Shown here piece after piece: positions 811 through 10,403 of a stretch of 64,000 bases of DNA. Under the pieces are notes generated by a model. It was not told the DNA's origin and ran no database searches. It was given only the letters and a program-made list of their open reading frames with translations. How positions within the stretch are numbered: the first letter of the stretch is position 1; the number at the start of each line of letters is the position of its first letter. The position numbers and the translations under genes were made by a program. The stretch covers positions 1 through 64,000 of the forward strand of contig JASANH010001668.1 in NCBI GenBank assembly GCA_030248295.1, given 5' to 3'. The DNA comes from Mesodorylaimus sp. YZB2_4 (Eukaryota > Nematoda > Enoplea > Dorylaimida > Dorylaimidae).

Positions 811-1067
811 TGCAATGTAGTTAGTTTGAATTCCCGCTCCAATTCCAGTTCACGTTCTATTGACTTTGGAGCCGAGGTCACCGGGTGAGGATGATGATAA
901 TGGAACTGGATCTCACCTAGGTCTGTTTGATAGTGGTGCAACTTATTTATCCTGGGTCCCTGTTTCGCCCTGGTACCCGGCCTAGATCCTATGTATTGCG
1001 GTGCAAATTCGGTGACCTAGGTTTTGATTATGTTGGGAAATGTTGTTTGTTTTGGACAGAACAGGTC

Positions 1068-1106
1068 GCAGCCAGCAGGTATAAAAGGACTCCTCTTGCT
1101 GGCTGC
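1068..1106 (+). promoter_or_regulatory. TATA box inside a perfect 10-bp inverted repeat
   Basis: GCAGCCAGCA (1068-1077) and TGCTGGCTGC (1097-1106) are perfect reverse complements. They enclose 19 bases that contain TATAAAAG at 1080-1087. The same structure occurs in the 3' LTR at 7781-7819. If the TATA box is used, the transcript would begin just after the right arm, so the 5' RNA would lack the hairpin while the U3 copy at the RNA 3' end would contain it. Confidence 0.7.
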
Positions 1107-1157
1107 AACCAGAGAACGTATTCTTCTGCCATTTGGTCACGACGTGTATTGCTATCG

Positions 1158-1163
1158 AATAAA
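1158..1163 (+). terminator. Polyadenylation signal AATAAA in the LTR
   Basis: AATAAA lies about 75 bases after the TATA box, as expected for the R region of a compact LTR. The copy at 7871-7876 would act at the end of the transcript. Confidence 0.6.
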
Positions 1164-1302
1164 GACGTGAAATCTTATGGCGAGGTTCGGACGGGGCAGA
1201 CGATCAAATCAGCGATATCAGCCATATCGAAACCTGGGTAAGCAGCATTGAGTGTAACGTAATTAGGAAGTGACTCAACCCCGAATCAACTACGTCCCAT
1301 TT

Positions 1303-1320
1303 TGGGGGCCGCTCGATCTG
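1303..1320 (+). other. Candidate primer-binding site
   Basis: TGGGGGCCGCTCGATCTG starts three bases after the 5' LTR and begins with the TGG expected opposite a tRNA CCA end. I could not assign the tRNA. Confidence 0.4.
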
Positions 1321-1335
1321 ACCCGGAGGAGGAGT

Positions 1336-1584
1336 GTGAGTTCGCATTCTGTTCTCACTAAAGAAGTTCCCAGTGTGTTCTTCTGGTCGGAAAGTCGCAC
1401 TCTGTCTTTCCGCAGTGGTACCCAGTGAGTCCACTCTTGGAGAGCCCAGTGTGTTCTCCAAAACGGAATTTCCAGTGTACCTTCCGTTTCGTGGTTCCCA
1501 TTGCGTTCCACAGTCAAGGATTCCCATTGTGTTTCCTTGAAAGGAGTCCCATTGCGTCTCCACTGAGAAGGCCCATTGGCCCTT
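1336..1584 (+). promoter_or_regulatory. Array of ten stem-loops in the retrotransposon leader
   Basis: Ten short inverted repeats follow one another, loop centres 24-26 bases apart. Stem arms are 1336-1340/1354-1358, 1362-1366/1380-1384, 1388-1394/1406-1412, 1414-1418/1431-1435, 1437-1443/1455-1461, 1462-1468/1482-1488, 1491-1494/1508-1511, 1514-1520/1534-1540, 1543-1546/1558-1561 and 1568-1571/1581-1584. Stem sequences differ from unit to unit but stay paired (CGGAAAG/CTTTCCG, TTGGAGA/TCTCCAA, TCAAGGA/TCCTTGA). Loops are conserved: CCCAGTG or CCCATTG in eight units, GCAYTCTG in two. Different stems with preserved pairing indicate selection on RNA structure. It lies between the primer site and the Gag start, where packaging signals lie in retroelements. 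A protein-binding array such as the gypsy insulator is an alternative. Confidence 0.8.
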
Positions 1585-1643
1585 TCACGAACAAGGTGTG
1601 TCAGATCTGTTAACAAAATTTGAAACGATTAAGTGTTTTCGAA

Positions 1644-4600
1644 ATGGCTTTGGCACAGAATGCAGATTTACAGGCCGCACTGGCCTCGCTGAATCAGCCA
1701 TTCTATCGGATTTGGGAAACGAAACCATTGACTGGCAGTCCAGAACAGGATGTCACTCGGTGGTTTAAGCATTTTGAATATCAGGCTAACTTAATAACAG
1801 GAATAACGAATGAAACTCGCTTGAGAGAACTAAAAAAGGCTGTGAGGGATAAAGCACAGCAAATCTTGGAAGATGCGGAGCCTGAGGAAATCGACACGTA
1901 CGATCACGCTAAACAACTGTTGACGCAGAACCTGATCCAGCCGCATCAGATCGCCGTCTGGCGTCAGCAATTTTCGAGCAGATGCAAACAAGAGAGTGAA
2001 ACAGTAGCCGATTATCTGAGAGATCTGAAAGTTTTAGTCAAACTGGCTTACCCTGGTGAACGGGACGAGGCTCAGAATTTGGTTTTGAAGGAACGTTTTA
2101 TGCAAGGCCTATTTGTGCAGGATAAATCGCACCCTAACTTTAAACTGTGGAAGGCCGCATACGTTAATATCTCTAAACCCATAGGGGATGTCATCGCAGC
2201 AGTAAACGCAGCGGAAGTCAGCCAACGAATGTTCTCCCTGTCTTCTTCAGCTGTCATCTCGAACCCCAGCCCGACGGACGTACAGAACACGTTCAACGCG
2301 ATGTTGATCGGGGGCCGTGGTCGAAACAGTTTCCGTGGCCGAAATGGATCTCGTGGCCGTGGACGAGGCCGTGGAGGAAATGGGCAAGTCCAGTCGAATG
2401 CTCAAACGGCTCAACCATCGAACAGCCAAAGACAACAATCAGCCCGTCGACAGTGCCAGTACGACGGAAACCATGGACACGTGCTGGCCGAATGTCGGTC
2501 ATTCAAAATTGCCCGCCAACATTTCGAGCAGAACGCTGGTCAGAACCCATGCAAGCACTGTGGGGATCTTGGCCACGAACGCGCATCATGCGATTGGTAC
2601 TTGGGAGCCAAGGCCCGCCTGCAAGGAACTGAACCGGTGCCCGTGGACAAACCACTCACGAACAGTGGTAACGTAAGTAACCAATTTCGAAGGGCTTATA
2701 ACGGAAGCAGTAGCTCATCAAATCGAGGTAGCCGAGGAAGAATAGGCAGGAGCCCCCTGCATCAGGGACTCACCCAAAACAGGAACCAAAACGCGGGAGG
2801 ACATCACGCAGCAGTAGAGGAAGAGGAAAACTTAAATTTGGAGGAATTCTTTTTTGCCGAATGCAGTACGTTCGACAAAGTAGCACAGAACGAGGAAGAG
2901 TTTTGGGTAGATTGCGAGGCGTACATGGCCTCAGATAACGAATATCAGTTTTACTCGCAGGAAGCGAGCGGAGTCGGCGCGGTAGTCACCAACGGCACTG
3001 CTGGAAATACGAATAAGGATACGAATAATACGTCAGCCGCCACGACAGGAGCAAACAATGACAACATGGCGCCAAACATCGCAGCCACCACGGTAGCTAA
3101 AGATCAAACCAATAAGGACGTGGAAAGCAACGAACAGGTAAAGGCAGTCGATATTTGGAACATGGTGTGGACACCATTAACAAGGGTGTTCTCCCACTTA
3201 GGAACCGCGCCCGCCGTTGGACGAGCATGTCAACGCATTACTGGATGCGTTGACCCAACCGGATCACTCGCACGGGGCTCCATGAAATCAAGAAGCGAAG
3301 GAAAAGCCCAGGAAGCCGTCACGATCGCTTTAGTGATAATTTGGACATGGCTATTGTGGAATGCTTTCGGATTGACTTTCATTTTGGTGTTGACGCACTT
3401 GATGGTGCAAGTTGATTTGTGGACAACAAGAGGACAAAAATCCAAAAAGTTTCTAAAAAGTCCAACAGAAATCAACGAAATATTAGGCGCACAGTGCGAA
3501 CAGGAACCTTCCATACCAGCCGCAGTACCTTTGGTTCACTTTCTCGATGCGAACACGCAGTCCCGAGCTCTGCTAGATACAGGTGCAGGAAAAACCTTTA
3601 TCAGCGACGCCTTACTGCAAACTCTCATACGAAATGAACCCGCGCTGAAAGTGAAGGAGTGTAAACAAGCACCCATGAAATCCATAAATGGTACAGCTGC
3701 AATAGCAAAGAAACAAGTCACATGCAAGATGCAAATCCTTGGAAGGATGGTGGTGCATCGCTTGCTAGTGTTGGACGGTATACCTGTACCTATGATAATA
3801 GGAAGAGACCTCATGTCGAAACTCGGGAAACTTGAATTCGATTTTTCGCAACAAGTGCCTTTAAACGCAACTGTTATCGAAGCCTGTCAAGGAATACGCA
3901 GCGGAGACAAATGCCATGAAGTGGTCGCATTGGCCGAGTCAGTAGTCATCCCTCCAGGCGTTGAAAAATATGTCTGGGGAAGCTTGGTGACCCAGGATGA
4001 CACGGACAGAACTGTGTGCATAGTACCAGACTACCGGCCACTCTCAAATGACAAAACTGTACTGGTAGCCCATGCGTTAGCTGAAACCCGAAGGGGTCAA
4101 GTTCCAATAAGAGTGATGAATAACTCGCAGAACCCAGTCTCACTCCCAATTGGTACTGTAATGGGATACGCGGAGGAAGTAGCAGAAGTCATCCCTACGG
4201 ATATGCATGTCACAGAGACGAAACCAAAGCAAATTGAAGATCTGATCAGGGATGTACAAAACATGACTTTCGACAACTCGCATGCCACCCTGGAGGAAAA
4301 AGCAGATCTGAGAGCATTTCTGAGCGGATGGGTGAGGAAAAAGCTGTTCGCCACGAGCACCATGGATTTGAAACCAGCTAACGTGGAGATAGAGCATACT
4401 ATCAATACAGGTGACCACCCACCAATCCATATTCCTCCCCGGAGGATACCATTTCGTCAGAGAGAGGTGGTTCACAAGATGATAGACGAGATGAAAGCAG
4501 GAGGTCAAATTGAAGACTCGTACAGCGCATGGGCTAGCCCAATCTGTTTGGTGAAGAAAAAAAGCAACGAGTATCGTTTCTGCGTGGATTACAGAGCGCT

Positions 4601-7487
4601 GAATGCAATCACGCTGCGGGATGAGTTTCCCTTGCCACGAACAGATGAAATATTACAGTCGTTGTCTGGAGTCAAGTTCTTTGCCAACCTGGACCTGATA
4701 TCGGGCTATTGGCAGATAAAGCTGAAAGAAGGTGATAAGGAAAAGACCGCATTTCGGGTACCAGGCGGAGGTCATTACCAATGGAAAGTGTTACCATTTG
4801 GTCTAACGAATTCGCCCGCCGTTTTCATGCGTCTTATGACTGCTGTATTAGCTGGGCTAAACTGGACCCATTGCCTAATATACCTAGACGACATACTCGT
4901 ATTTGGAAGAACGTATAAAGAATTCAAAGCACGATTGCAAGCTGTCTTTGAACGGTTACACAAGGCAAATTTGCGCTTGAAGCTATCGAAGTGTAGCTTC
5001 TTACAGTCGGAAATACCTTTTTTGGGGCATATCATATCCGCAGAAGGTCTCAAACCTGATGAAAGCAAGGTTCGAGCTGTTAAGGAGATGCCAGAACCCA
5101 AGGATAGAAAAGCAGTGCGCCGATTTCTCGGCATGTGTGGGTTCTACAGGAAATTCGTGAAAGGCTTTTCGGGGATAGCTCGACCGTTGTTTGAACTGAC
5201 CAAAGACAGCGTACCATTCGTGTGGAATGACGACGCCAAGAAGGCTTTTAACGAACTCAAGGATCGCCTAATAGCAGCACCAGTCCTAGCATACCCAAAC
5301 TTTCAGAAATCATTCACGATCTACACTGATGCTAGCAGGGAAGGATTGGGTGCAATCCTAGCCCAGAATGACGATAACAACGTGGAACACCCGATAGCCT
5401 ATGCCAGTCGATCATTATTGCCTAGCGAGAAGAATTACCCAGTCACTGAACTGGAGGGTTTGGCTGTGCATTGGGCCATAAAACTGTTCCGACCATATGT
5501 ATATGGGCAGAAATTCACTGTCATCACTGACCATCTCCCGCTCGTATACATCTTTAAGAACAAATATCACGAAGGCCGTTTTGCCAAGTGGATCGCGAAC
5601 TTGGGAGGAATGCATTTCGAAATTAGGTATCGACCAGGAAAACGTCACGACAACGTCGACGCCCTATCGCGAGCTAGCCTGAACGTGCTGTTAGCCGCAT
5701 TGGAGAAGGAAGTTTCGCAACTGGACTTAAGTTTATGGGAAAGTCATGCTAGACTGGCAGATCTCGCGTTACAACAACGTAACGATAGTAGGCTGAAGGC
5801 CAGAATTGAATTCTTGGAAGCGGGCATCATACCCGCAGATGAACAAACTGCAAAGCAGTTCCTGCTGGAAAAGCCACGATATATCATGAAAGATGGAATC
5901 CTAGTCCATCTGATGAAATGGACCAAAAGCTCGGAGCCGGTATATCAAACAGTGATTCCACAGAACATGAAGGGCGAAATTTTAGAACAATGCCACAGTG
6001 ACGCGTTTGCATCCCATTTTGGGGTGGGAAAAACGTTTGACAAGATAGCGCAGCGCTATTATTGGGACGGCTACTTTCAAGATGTTGAGAGGTACGTGAA
6101 GCGGTGCCCGTACTGCGCCAGGTTCAAAAATCCGAATCGTAGCAACATCGCCCCTCTGCAACCCATGCCGCTCACAGCTGGTCCATGGGAACGCGTAGGC
6201 GTAGACCTGGTGGGACCTCTGCCACAAACGAAGAATCAAATGCGTTACGTGGTCGTGTTCACCGATTACTTCAGCCGTTGGGTGGAAGCAGTGGCTATTC
6301 CTGACGCTACAGCGAAAACGGTCGCTTCCGCGTTCATACAAGAAGTGATTTGCCGTTATGGGAGCTGCAACGAACTCGTATCGGATCGAGGTGCGCAATT
6401 TCTGTCAGCCATGATGAAGGAAGTGTACGATTTGTGCGACATCAAGAAAAAGAACACAACAGCGTATCACCCTATGTGCAACGGATTGACGGAGCGATTC
6501 AACAAAGTCATAGGTACAATGCTAGGTATATATGTCAAGCAGTTTGGACAACAGTGGGATGAGGCTTTGCCGTTTATATTGTTCGGATATCGGTCATCGA
6601 TACAATCATCTTTGAAATATTCACCCCATAAAATCCTCTTTGGTCGCGAGCCAAGAATTCCAGGTGAATTGACGGTACAACCCACTGAAAGGAAGACCAC
6701 TACTGAATATGCGGCACAAGTAGCTGCTGGTCTTGCAGCCATGAAATCCATCATACGATGCAACCTAAGAGAAGCACAAGAAAGGCAGAAACATCACTAT
6801 GACAAGAATCGGGAGCAGCGGGATTTCCCAGTCAAAAGTCTGGTCTGGTTACAGACAGTACCGAAAGGGCTTGGTCAAAAGCTGCAACCCAAATGGGATG
6901 GTCCGTATGTCGTTTTAGCGAAGCCGACGTTGGTGGACAGTGTCATCCGACTTTGCGACAAGCCCACTGCCGACAGCAAGTTGGTCCATAACAACCGATT
7001 GAAGCCATGTTATGCTCCATGGCAGGCGCCTCCGAATGAAGAAGATGAAGAAGAGGATACACCGCAAATGACAGGCAACACGAAACAGAAACAACAAAGG
7101 GAACCGAGGCAAGAACAACGACAGCAGGCTCAGCAACAGCAACAGCACCTTGAGCCGTATATGGAAGAGCGACCTGGTCTGAGGTTGGACCGCTCAATGA
7201 CGCCGACGTATGCAACGCCACCGACATCACCAGCCAGGCCAGCCACACCGCCCACCATTCTCCCACAGGATCCATTTACTGCGACGCAAGTTCCACCCGT
7301 CATACCGGCGCAGTCCAATGATCCCGACAATGCACCCACCGTCAGCACCACGGCGTCCACAGACACCTCAGCGCCCGCTCCAACCACATCAATGGTAGCA
7401 CCCACTCGGACCAGGGGTGCTGGACTGCGGTTGAACCCAACCAAGACAAGGCGGTATTCCCCAGAACCGATCAAGAAGAAGCGTTGA
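1644..7487 (+). CDS. Gag-Pol polyprotein of the Ty3/gypsy element
   Basis: One uninterrupted frame of 1947 codons makes all structural and replication proteins, so no gag/pol frameshift is needed. The frame is open from 1614, but 1644 is its first ATG. Order: Gag capsid-like region (about 20-200); RG-rich stretch; a degenerate zinc knuckle near 271 with its second Cys replaced by Asp; an intact CCHC knuckle at 303-316; an acidic linker; a hydrophobic stretch at about 558-593; aspartic protease (DTGA, Asp645; IIGRD); reverse transcriptase (YLDD, Asp1082-1083); RNase H (TDAS, Asp1229); HHCC zinc region (about 1450-1500); integrase DDE at Asp1521, Asp1581 and Glu1617 with D35E spacing; then a Gln/Pro/Thr-rich tail. 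All key residues are present, so it looks competent. No envelope protein is encoded. Confidence 0.95.
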   Translation: MALAQNADLQAALASLNQPFYRIWETKPLTGSPEQDVTRWFKHFEYQANLITGITNETRLRELKKAVRDKAQQILEDAEPEEIDTYDHAKQLLTQNLIQPHQIAVWRQQFSSRCKQESETVADYLRDLKVLVKLAYPGERDEAQNLVLKERFMQGLFVQDKSHPNFKLWKAAYVNISKPIGDVIAAVNAAEVSQRMFSLSSSAVISNPSPTDVQNTFNAMLIGGRGRNSFRGRNGSRGRGRGRGGNGQVQSNAQTAQPSNSQRQQSARRQCQYDGNHGHVLAECRSFKIARQHFEQNAGQNPCKHCGDLGHERASCDWYLGAKARLQGTEPVPVDKPLTNSGNVSNQFRRAYNGSSSSSNRGSRGRIGRSPLHQGLTQNRNQNAGGHHAAVEEEENLNLEEFFFAECSTFDKVAQNEEEFWVDCEAYMASDNEYQFYSQEASGVGAVVTNGTAGNTNKDTNNTSAATTGANNDNMAPNIAATTVAKDQTNKDVESNEQVKAVDIWNMVWTPLTRVFSHLGTAPAVGRACQRITGCVDPTGSLARGSMKSRSEGKAQEAVTIALVIIWTWLLWNAFGLTFILVLTHLMVQVDLWTTRGQKSKKFLKSPTEINEILGAQCEQEPSIPAAVPLVHFLDANTQSRALLDTGAGKTFISDALLQTLIRNEPALKVKECKQAPMKSINGTAAIAKKQVTCKMQILGRMVVHRLLVLDGIPVPMIIGRDLMSKLGKLEFDFSQQVPLNATVIEACQGIRSGDKCHEVVALAESVVIPPGVEKYVWGSLVTQDDTDRTVCIVPDYRPLSNDKTVLVAHALAETRRGQVPIRVMNNSQNPVSLPIGTVMGYAEEVAEVIPTDMHVTETKPKQIEDLIRDVQNMTFDNSHATLEEKADLRAFLSGWVRKKLFATSTMDLKPANVEIEHTINTGDHPPIHIPPRRIPFRQREVVHKMIDEMKAGGQIEDSYSAWASPICLVKKKSNEYRFCVDYRALNAITLRDEFPLPRTDEILQSLSGVKFFANLDLISGYWQIKLKEGDKEKTAFRVPGGGHYQWKVLPFGLTNSPAVFMRLMTAVLAGLNWTHCLIYLDDILVFGRTYKEFKARLQAVFERLHKANLRLKLSKCSFLQSEIPFLGHIISAEGLKPDESKVRAVKEMPEPKDRKAVRRFLGMCGFYRKFVKGFSGIARPLFELTKDSVPFVWNDDAKKAFNELKDRLIAAPVLAYPNFQKSFTIYTDASREGLGAILAQNDDNNVEHPIAYASRSLLPSEKNYPVTELEGLAVHWAIKLFRPYVYGQKFTVITDHLPLVYIFKNKYHEGRFAKWIANLGGMHFEIRYRPGKRHDNVDALSRASLNVLLAALEKEVSQLDLSLWESHARLADLALQQRNDSRLKARIEFLEAGIIPADEQTAKQFLLEKPRYIMKDGILVHLMKWTKSSEPVYQTVIPQNMKGEILEQCHSDAFASHFGVGKTFDKIAQRYYWDGYFQDVERYVKRCPYCARFKNPNRSNIAPLQPMPLTAGPWERVGVDLVGPLPQTKNQMRYVVVFTDYFSRWVEAVAIPDATAKTVASAFIQEVICRYGSCNELVSDRGAQFLSAMMKEVYDLCDIKKKNTTAYHPMCNGLTERFNKVIGTMLGIYVKQFGQQWDEALPFILFGYRSSIQSSLKYSPHKILFGREPRIPGELTVQPTERKTTTEYAAQVAAGLAAMKSIIRCNLREAQERQKHHYDKNREQRDFPVKSLVWLQTVPKGLGQKLQPKWDGPYVVLAKPTLVDSVIRLCDKPTADSKLVHNNRLKPCYAPWQAPPNEEDEEEDTPQMTGNTKQKQQREPRQEQRQQAQQQQQHLEPYMEERPGLRLDRSMTPTYATPPTSPARPATPPTILPQDPFTATQVPPVIPAQSNDPDNAPTVSTTASTDTSAPAPTTSMVAPTRTRGAGLRLNPTKTRRYSPEPIKKKR

Positions 7488-7523
7488 AGATCGAGGACGA
7501 TCTCTTTCAAATTGCCGGGCGTG

Positions 7524-8012
7524 TGCAATGTAGTTAGTTTGAATTCCCGCTCCAATTCCAGTTCACGTTCTATTGACTTTGGAGCCGAGGTCACCGGGTG
7601 AGGATGATGATAATGGAACTGGATCTCACCTAGGTCTGTTTGATAGTGGTGCAACTTATTTATCCTGGGTCCCTGTTTCGCCCTGGTACCCGGCCTAGAT
7701 CCTATGTATTGCGGTGCAAATTCGGTGACCTAGGTTTTGATTATGTTGGGAAATGTTGTTTGTTTTGGACAGAACAGGTCGCAGCCAGCAGGTATAAAAG
7801 GACTCCTCTTGCTGGCTGCAACCAGAGAACGTATTCTTCTGCCATTTGGTCACGACGTGTATTGCTATCGAATAAAGACGTGAAATCTTATGGCGAGGTT
7901 CGGACGGGGCAGACGATCAAATCAGCGATATCAGCCATATCGAAACCTGGGTAAGCAGCATTGAGTGTAACGTAATTAGGAAGTGACTCAACCCCGAATC
8001 AACTACGTCCCA
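7524..8012 (+). repeat. 3' LTR
   Basis: Same sequence as 811-1299. The bases just upstream (7498-7523) are not a purine run, so the usual plus-strand primer is not evident. The nearest purine-rich stretch is around 7470-7495, inside the end of the coding frame. Confidence 0.93.
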
Positions 8013-9217
8013 CTTTGACCAGGCCAATCCACTCACGACCCGCGGGAATATCTCGATGGGCATGGATAAATCCTTCGCTCTGCACATTCCGAATAAGGCA
8101 TTAACCGAAATGGAACAGGCATCCGAGCGCCTGAACCTGAAGAGTAGCTCGAACGGAGTTGTGGCTGGCGGTCTCGAAATCCACGATGACGGTTCGCACC
8201 AAACCGATGTTGCCAAAACGATCGATCAAAGCGTCGCGCAGCACAGTGAACAGGATGTAATACGTAGCTCTGGTTCGATTCGGGAGCAGAGCAGGACAAC
8301 AAGGAACCGCTTCTCCGTTGCAAAACGCATGAATTGTGTAGAGTTGATGGAATTCGGATGGGACGAACTCGAATGTGCCATCTCCAACCCAGTATTCAGA
8401 CAAGTTCATCACTTCGAGGTCCAACTCCGAGGCGAAGATGAGAATGTTATTTGCATTGTACAATTACATTTTCTCATTAGCTAACGGATGATCCGGGTCA
8501 GCGGTGAAGGCTTCTCGACCCCGCAAAGTCAGCTGATATGGGACTGGTAAGTCATGGATGTCCGCGATAGGGATGACGCTCTTAGCTAGAGCCCTAAAAG
8601 GGTTTTTGGTCACGAAGGAACACATCACACCTGGGACTACATCTCTTACCCATAGAGACTACTTCTCATTCGCTTAAAAGGAGGGAAAGCCAATTTAACA
8701 GCTTCTTGAGCAGCCTGAGCAGGATATCGCTTGGCAATTGACGCAACGCCTTGTCGGTAAGCTTGCAGTGGTTTCAGGCCTTCCCGGCCAGTGCGTTCGA
8801 TGATTTCGCGCTTGATTTTCAAAGCCTCGACCGCCGCTCGATTAAGAGCAGCGCAGAATTGGGCATGACCGCCGTCAGGATTCGTCATCACTCGACCATT
8901 TCGGACACTCACACGAGACTTTTGCCATCGCCGAGCTCTGAGCACCTACGACACTGGTAATAAATCACCTCTTGGCCACTAGCTAACCTTTTCGCTTTCG
9001 TCTTTTGGAATAAATTGAAATGGCCTTCATTCACTCGACTTTCACAAATCAATAGCGTCGCGTTATGATGAACTGTAAGCATGTACTCACACGTGGCTTC
9101 TCCGAAATCGGCACCCATGTTCACTTTTTGAAGCTCAAAATCAAAACCCAAAACAACGTGATCTTGGCCGTCGTGCTTTTTGTCATAGCGGCGTCCTTTT
9201 TGACTTATGATGCGCAA
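8013..9217 (-). pseudogene. MULE transposase, FLYWCH and N-terminal catalytic part
   Basis: Reading leftward from 9217, a FLYWCH-like region is seen with YYQCRRC and then, after a one-base frame change near 8930, NGRVMTNPDGGHAQFC, giving the Cys/His spacing of that finger. The catalytic part at 8463-8101 has YWVGDGTFEF (first Asp), FHQLYTIHAF and TVIVDFE (second Asp), then GCLFHFG followed by TAA. The related copy at 22.6 kb has Gln at that position (FHFGQCL), so this looks like a CAA-to-TAA change. The frame then continues to 8017 and resumes at 806 beyond the retrotransposon. Confidence 0.8.
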
Positions 9218-9290
9218 TGAGTTTCGCAGTAAGAACGCATTTGCTTGCTTTCCTTATTTGTGCAGATACGGTATCATTGATCTGAACATT

Positions 9291-9493
9291 AGGCGAACAG
9301 GCCGGACTGCGAGGTCACGGCTCCGTTCGCTTATGCATAGGGCGAAGGCTGGACGGGCGAACAGGTTGGACAGGCGAACAGGCCGGACTGCGAGGTCACG
9401 GCTCCGTTCGCTTATGCATAGGGCGACAGGCTGGACGGGCGAACAGGTTGGACAGGCGAACAGACCGGACGGGCGAACACGCCGGACAGAGCC
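9291..9493. repeat. Right MULE end: 81/82-bp tandem units
   Basis: Units at 9291-9371 and 9372-9453 are nearly identical, and a partial third runs to 9493. Each contains GCGAACAGGCCGGACTGCG and CGGCTCCGTTCGCTTATGC, matching the inverted left end at 1-53. Shorter GGCGAACAG motifs recur within each unit. Tandem repeats at or just inside the terminal inverted repeat are known in MULEs. Confidence 0.75.
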
Positions 9494-9748: not shown

Positions 9749-10403
9749 ACCCCAATAAAAAAGGTCCATGAAATGGACCAACCCCTAGGTGCTTAGGAAT
9801 AGAGAACACAAACCTGCCACCAAAAAACCGTGCGAAAAATTTTCCCTCTCCACGCGCTTCTCTATTCCCAAGCCCTGATATACGCTTGCGTTAGGTATAG
9901 CGTGGAGAATACATTGCATGCCGAGTCATAATGCATAGAAGCATTTGCTGCATTGCTCGCATGGTTGGAGGCATGAGATTTTGCTGTTATGGCTTCGGTG
10001 CAGTGATTCGTTTAGTCTTTCAAGTAAACTATGCATTTTGTAAATGGACAGTGCGTTATGTCACTATAACTGTAGGCATGTTACGACTGCAAGCTGTAGG
10101 TCAATTAATAGAATGCCAAGTGTGCGGATATAATGGCTGTGTCGGTTACTCATTGTGTCAAAGAGCAAGCTTCCTGTGCAATGTTTATTTCACGTTATAC
10201 ATAGAACGTGAGTGTAGTGACCGCATGCCACGAAGCTTCAGCGCTTCAGCAACGCACAACGGTATCATTTGTCAGGGCTTAGGAATAGAGAAGCGCGTGG
10301 AGAGGGGAAATTTTTCGCACGGTTTTTTCGTGGCAGGTTTGTGTTCTCTATTCCTAAGCACCTAGGGGCTGGTCCATTTCGGGGACCTTTTTTAGTGGGG
10401 GTC
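9749..10403. mobile_element. MITE-like element with ~133-bp terminal inverted repeats
   Basis: Bases 9749-9880 and 10270-10403 are reverse complements with few mismatches, around a ~390-bp core without protein motifs. Each arm contains its own inverted repeat: GCTTAGGAATAGAGAA with TTCTCTATTCCCAAGC (9791-9806/9858-9873), and the same pair at 10277-10292/10344-10359. A small palindrome, GGTCCAT..ATGGACC, lies near the outer end. No target duplication was confirmed, so the element type is inferred from structure. Confidence 0.75.

Follow-up and report, generated by a model that had tools for sequence, protein, structure and literature searches.

The 5' leader of a Ty3/gypsy-type long terminal repeat (LTR) retrotransposon in the nematode Mesodorylaimus sp. 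YZB2_4 carries a tandem array of ten hairpins that share a loop core and differ in their stems, each stem pairing within its own unit. The element occupies positions 811-8012 of the window, i.e., the 64,000-nucleotide stretch of contig JASANH010001668.1 analyzed here, and the array lies at 1336-1586, between the presumptive primer site (from which it is 12 nt distant) and the gag AUG at 1644. Hairpin structure in the leader is well supported, and selection on the units for self-pairing is supported as well. We read the array as a multivalent, element-specific RNA recognition site, most likely a packaging or assembly signal bound by Gag, and regard this reading as about an even call: that RNA is the acting form, Gag the reader and packaging the purpose is in each case what we infer.

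The ten units, all on the plus strand, follow one another at a nearly constant step, with distances between the first cytosines of successive CANU loop cores of 26, 27, 25, 24, 26, 26, 26, 25 and 24 nt. Seven have perfect stems of 5-8 bp: unit 1 (1336-1358; GTGAG/CTCAC, 5 bp, loop TTCGCATTCTGTT), unit 2 (1362-1384; AGAAG/CTTCT, 5 bp), unit 3 (1388-1412; CGGAAAG/CTTTCCG, 7 bp), unit 4 (1414-1435; AGTGG/CCACT, 5 bp), unit 5 (1437-1461; TTGGAG/CTCCAA, 6 bp), unit 6 (1463-1487; ACGGAA/TTCCGT, 8 bp with flanks) and unit 8 (1515-1539; CAAGGA/TCCTTG, 7 bp with flanks). The perfect stems of the other three measure 4 bp: unit 7 (1491-1511; GTGG/CCAC), unit 9 (1543-1561; GGAG/CTCC) and unit 10 (1567-1586; core GGCC CATT GGCC). 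The loop core is CAGU in four units, CAUU in five and CACU in one, and is closed by an inner pair (columns 10-15 of the alignment) that is C-G in eight units and G-C in units 1 and 3, the two with the odd loop GCAYTCTG; in unit 10 this pair (1573/1578) is C-G in the window and U-A in the same-family copies L004 and L005. Stem and inner pair are separated by an asymmetric internal loop, whose 5' strand is often UUC and whose 3' strand is often NGUU. A first-pass annotation made from the sequence alone had described these ten stem-loops between primer site and Gag start, with their loops, and all of this stands. Its start (1336), the regularity of the spacing and the number of perfectly paired units also hold, while the end moves from 1584 to 1586, the spacing from 24-26 to 24-27 nt and the upper stem length from 7 to 8 bp.

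Pairing within the units was far above expectation by several measures. In stem columns 2-6 of a hand alignment, 44 of 50 cells were Watson-Crick, versus a mean of 21.5 when arms were dealt among the units (1 of 200,000 permutations was as high) and 13-19 when the register was slid. In a MAFFT alignment, 96.5% of the cells were paired (65.9% in shuffled alignments; 0/500 as high), the covariation score was 0.702 (0.254 shuffled; 0/500), and all seven pairs showed changes on both sides, bearing out the earlier proposal of selection for pairing within each unit. The leader as a whole also folded better than its dinucleotide shuffles (z -3.15; 0/200). When 25 leaders and 235 control stretches were scanned blindly, with every 6-mer and loop window considered, the window leader came top of the 260 sequences (27.2 versus a control maximum of 23.3).

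Comparison among copies of the element points the same way. In the genome (145 Mb, 1067 contigs), the leader matched at five places, namely the window itself, two places at 100%, of which one spans 13-321 of the 321 positions, and two more at 91-92%. The stem arms were the least changed part between the window and either copy: in L005, substitutions numbered 2/110 in arms, 11/118 in loops, 6/21 in spacers and 15/93 in leader flanks, the two arm changes together forming one compensatory pair, and in L004 they numbered 5/110, 8/118, 5/21 and 10/79 respectively. A covariance model built on the window recovered nine of its ten units, and across 30 loci all 18 of its matches at E up to 5 fell in L004 and L005. 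In the 64-kb window, model R1 (up to E 10) found units in the leader only, together with an echo of unit 5 on the minus strand.

Arrays of this kind recur in related elements. In a Gag search of the same genome, 150 of 262 candidates were scored, identity to the window Gag being 40-63% for many, and by eye, tandem hairpins with differing loops were seen after the primer site and upstream of related Gags. The loops vary between families, for example AGGUCCUCGAAUAGGCC (L011), UUGGUGCCUUGUAGCCC (L025), UCGCAGGWGG (L039), GUGUCUC (L063) and CCAAGU (L033). From 95 examined loci (several overlapping), 68 leaders with a primer-site-like motif recognizable by pattern were obtained, falling into 25 clusters. 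A permutation test anchored on the repeated motif, with the loop window maximized within each permutation, was tried on 24 families; L044, L051 and L079 had fewer than four usable units, leaving 21 testable, and L080 was without an anchor. Cognate stem pairing exceeded non-cognate pairing at p<0.05 in 12 of these 21, a figure weakened by the choice of anchors by eye. An earlier, automatic choice of motif reached p<0.05 in five of 25 families and was weak because the chosen repeat often fell in the stem. When distinct units from the several copies were pooled under fixed windows, p was ≤0.0012 in eight of 13 sets and 0.012 and 0.018 in two more, with the reservation that pooled units share descent and are not all independent. 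In the blind scan, leaders as a group scored above controls (Mann-Whitney p 4e-5). At least four exact 5-mers were common to the hairpin loops in 18 of 25 leaders. The same level was attained in 4 of 158 other window stretches, in one of 17 taken from gag-pol, in one of the four BEL leaders and in two of 60 stretches of BEL coding sequence. The four BEL/Pao leaders showed no array by eye and none exceeded the control 95% level of the blind scan; for three of these loci (L102-L104) the LTR end was not located, so that the stretches may include LTR. Whole-leader minimum free energy (MFE) z-scores of the 25 families, +0.9 to -3.4, were too blunt a measure.

The most distant Gag lineage (L059, L063, L066, L072, L079 and L080) formed a fully supported clade (100/100), in which L059 and L063 passed the permutation test, L066 and L072 failed and L079 had too few units. 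By eye, the L066 and L079 leaders have a conserved motif, GC..TGCGGA, that flanks a variable hairpin and lies outside its loop. Loops of CCAAG type recur by eye in the leaders of L016, L033, L044 and L058, and are perhaps an older shared loop. Beyond this genome, the Gag search (7984 candidates scored) yielded two proteins, both encoded on short contigs and lacking DNA context; the collections of viral contigs and genome contigs gave no confirmed locus, and plasmids gave none.

The leaders are also strikingly poor in start codons. Over the initial 215 nt, counted from the primer site, ATG occurred four times in the 25 families, versus 61 ± 6 in dinucleotide shuffles, and was absent altogether from 22 of them; its complement CAT occurred 55 times versus 84. 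In the window, only two ATGs lie between the TATA box and gag, one at 1177 opening a short frame and one at 1644 opening gag. Such near absence of AUG suggests that the leader is plus-strand RNA and probably scanned by ribosomes. The frame at 1177-1251 (plus strand) is Arg-rich (MARFGRGRRSNQRYQPYRNLGKQH), lies in the LTR and crosses a donor-like GTAAG at 1238, upstream of the array. It differs from its L005 counterpart at three positions, all synonymous, and in 16 of 25 families a short frame matching the loose motif R[FYST].?P[YH] precedes the primer site. In 18 of 25 families a GTAAG stood no more than 120 nt before the primer site (letter-shuffled mean 2.3, maximum 7), and four more had donor-like words related to it. 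The LTR micro-frame may serve as an upstream open reading frame, as the opening exon of a spliced message, or in both roles.

Together these features suggest how a Gag-read packaging or assembly signal might work. The stems would mainly serve to display the conserved loop (CANU closed by C-G, G-C or U-A, inside the asymmetric internal loop), since it is the loops that are kept while the stems are exchanged, and the loop is therefore the part that is read. The array would mark the unspliced genomic RNA, and its reader would be the nucleocapsid zinc knuckles of the element's own Gag, of which the window gag encodes two, CQYDGNHGHVLAEC and CKHCGDLGHERASC; the first-pass annotation had likewise proposed the CCHC knuckle as reader of a packaging or dimerization element. 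Built of many weak hairpins and not of a single strong one, the leader would stay passable to ribosomes scanning for the gag AUG, many loops on offer could support cooperative binding, and unlike stems would limit both cross-pairing and the recombinational loss of repeats. The finding of similar arrays in related elements, though with other loops, suggests a private recognition tag, many times repeated, and the occurrence of different loops per family in one host argues against a single host reader and for one encoded by the element. Among six related elements (of which L015 and L029 belong to the same leader cluster), Gag cores were 68-85% identical and the knuckle region 44-63%; the comparison left out L054, which is broken by stops (61-68% core, 24-33% knuckle region). 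More tentatively, and in our judgment possible rather than probable, the whole clade may use a modular barcode, in which each family presents a private loop in ~4-12 copies on interchangeable weak stems within an AUG-free leader, a fast-evolving Gag nucleocapsid reads it, and co-resident families do not cross-package.

Several results weigh against this account. The window's own loops have four exact 5-mers in common, which is not unusual against shuffles (mean 2.4; one shuffle of 40 or more reaching 5), as the window loops have drifted. Nine of the 21 testable families were not significant in the by-eye-anchor permutation test, nor were three of the 13 pooled sets, some of these having near-identical stems and hence no power; in the blind scan, five of 25 leaders exceeded the control 95% level. 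The copy L004 loses two stem pairs (units 5 and 7). In MFE structures, double changes between copies kept 13 pairs and broke 17, and single changes kept 66 and broke 126, so that this test lent no support, although it included many decaying copies and pairs outside the array. Leaders on average folded more stably than their shuffles, but folding does not single out the plus strand: over 25 families mean folding z was -1.18 on the plus and -1.68 on the minus strand, the plus strand folding better in eight (Wilcoxon p 0.048); the window alone had z -3.38 on plus and -1.63 on minus. Nor was the count of G.U versus A.C in the stems (26 versus 16) decisive for strand. As for the reader, the knuckle region includes low-complexity linkers, which makes its lower identity weak evidence, and L024 and L029, with Gag cores 85% alike, have quite different loops, for which any strict Gag-loop pairing must account.

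The depletion of AUG would be explained by a translation device: having passed the short LTR frame, ribosomes would re-initiate or shunt across the hairpin leader and begin translation at gag. The window has only the AUGs at 1177 and 1644 along this path, and the ATG-free leaders and recurrent short frames of the other families would fit, so that this is unlikely but deserves some weight; what it leaves unexplained is one loop repeated ~4-12 times on unlike stems, and shunt leaders such as that of cauliflower mosaic virus use a single strong hairpin. Alternatively, the array may be an export or stability element for unspliced RNA, comparable to a constitutive transport element or Rev response element, with a host factor or the LTR peptide, itself Arg-rich and recurrent, as its reader. 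The candidate donor in 18 of 25 families would suggest that unspliced RNA needs handling. However, the LTR peptides of L015, L016 and L024 are very similar while the loops beside them are quite different, which argues against the peptide as reader, and a single host factor should need no separate loop for each family; we consider this decidedly doubtful.

The nearness of the array to the presumptive primer site raises an aid to reverse transcription or dimerization, which we think quite improbable. None of the ten loops contains a self-complementary hexamer, so that dimerization by loop kissing, one of the functions first suggested, is not favored; moreover Ty3 RNA is packaged without need for its primer sites, as stated in the available part of the source (PMC11381356), and nearness to such a site thus says little. 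An origin by mutation alone, in which template switching by polymerase or reverse transcriptase would perfect quasi-palindromes and loops would be copied by tandem duplication, to no function, is very improbable. Template-switch correction of quasi-palindromes is known in general, and pairing across families is about equal on either strand; yet such a process would not conserve loops while stems diverge, nor put arrays directly after the primer site in many families. Least of all do we expect a DNA-level array of protein-binding sites (an insulator or enhancer), the rival idea of the first-pass annotation. The Su(Hw) repeats of Drosophila gypsy are indeed a repeated motif between LTR and gag, and the window likewise has a core motif repeated at even intervals before gag, but Su(Hw) repeats are protein-binding DNA without covarying arms. 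Sites of that type have unconstrained flanks, whereas the unlike arms in the window keep pairing, as a protein site would not need, and are the most conserved part between copies; the plus-strand depletion of AUG in the leaders also speaks against it. The CAGUG letters of the iron-responsive element loop occur in four window units; this candidate was rejected, as the array lacks the CAGUGN loop with its C1-G5 pair, columns 11-15 (C and C) being unpairable in units 1 and 3 while columns 10-15 pair in all ten. Rfam gave no iron-responsive-element match up to E 1, and two sub-threshold matches in 800-2000, both outside the array.

Among known systems, a Gag-read signal of this kind resembles retroviral psi in its leader position near gag, its small hairpins with conserved loops (here with covariation among the ten units), its place downstream of a donor-like site and its association with a CCHC Gag. 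Psi often sits downstream of the splice donor, and if the candidate donor is used, the array sits where psi lies. Known psi elements, on the other hand, consist of few, unlike hairpins, while the element's clade has ~4-12 like hairpins in tandem with a loop for each family. In their loop-specific, stem-indifferent presentation, with several copies together, the AXXA stem-loops of satellite tobacco necrosis virus (STNV), those of MS2 and the RGAG loops of hepatitis B virus are alike, as far as the available excerpts describe them; the STNV packaging signals, of which several loop-specific copies act together (PMC3593212, in the part available), serve as a working analogue. The same loop on sequence-indifferent stems is thus found in both, and they differ in that STNV-type sites are spread over the genome and the window array is gathered in a single leader cassette. 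The RNAs of Ty3 and Ty1 are alike as LTR retrotransposon RNAs with 5' cis-acting sites; the parts available of two sources call their Gag-binding sites (PMC4974528) and packaging sequences (PMC11381356) not precisely defined, and mention no hairpin array in the leaders. The earlier remark that no described element was known to have this arrangement agrees with a search of the open-access literature, which found none; subscription papers lay outside its scope, making this absence weak evidence.

The host element has the Ty3/gypsy layout, with LTRs, gag and domains in the order protease, reverse transcriptase, RNase H and integrase. The 5' LTR (TG...CA; approximately 811-1299, its 3' boundary set at CA by eye) and the 3' LTR (approximately 7524-8012) are both on the plus strand, and 811-1304 is 99.8% identical to 7524-8017 over 494 nt (blastn). 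Directly after the 5' LTR comes the presumptive tRNA primer-binding site (1302-1323, plus strand), and a single gag-pol frame (1644-7487, plus strand) encodes Retrotrans_gag, RVP, RVT_1, RNase H, Integrase_H2C2 and rve; between its end and the 3' LTR there is no additional frame of 100 aa. Elsewhere in the window, FYVE, Cpn60_TCP1 and PIP5K domains are encoded at 38-49 kb, together resembling a PIKfyve gene; these genes mark the host as eukaryotic. Tandem repeats in 17-nt steps occupy 9287-9487, part of them present as an inverted copy at 1-57, and a long inverted repeat (arms of 143 nt, 91% complementary) lies in 9750-10400.

Even in Ty1 and Ty3, the way in which an LTR retrotransposon selects its own RNA is poorly defined, according to the available parts of two sources (PMC4974528, PMC11381356). 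Here about 25 families of leaders can be compared within one genome, and many of them have an array whose units can be counted and a loop peculiar to the family, which makes the specificity between loop and Gag directly testable. Many weak hairpins in a leader with hardly any AUG would show one RNA that is both scanned by ribosomes and recognized by Gag; and if the barcode is real, families that share one genome would not package each other's RNA.
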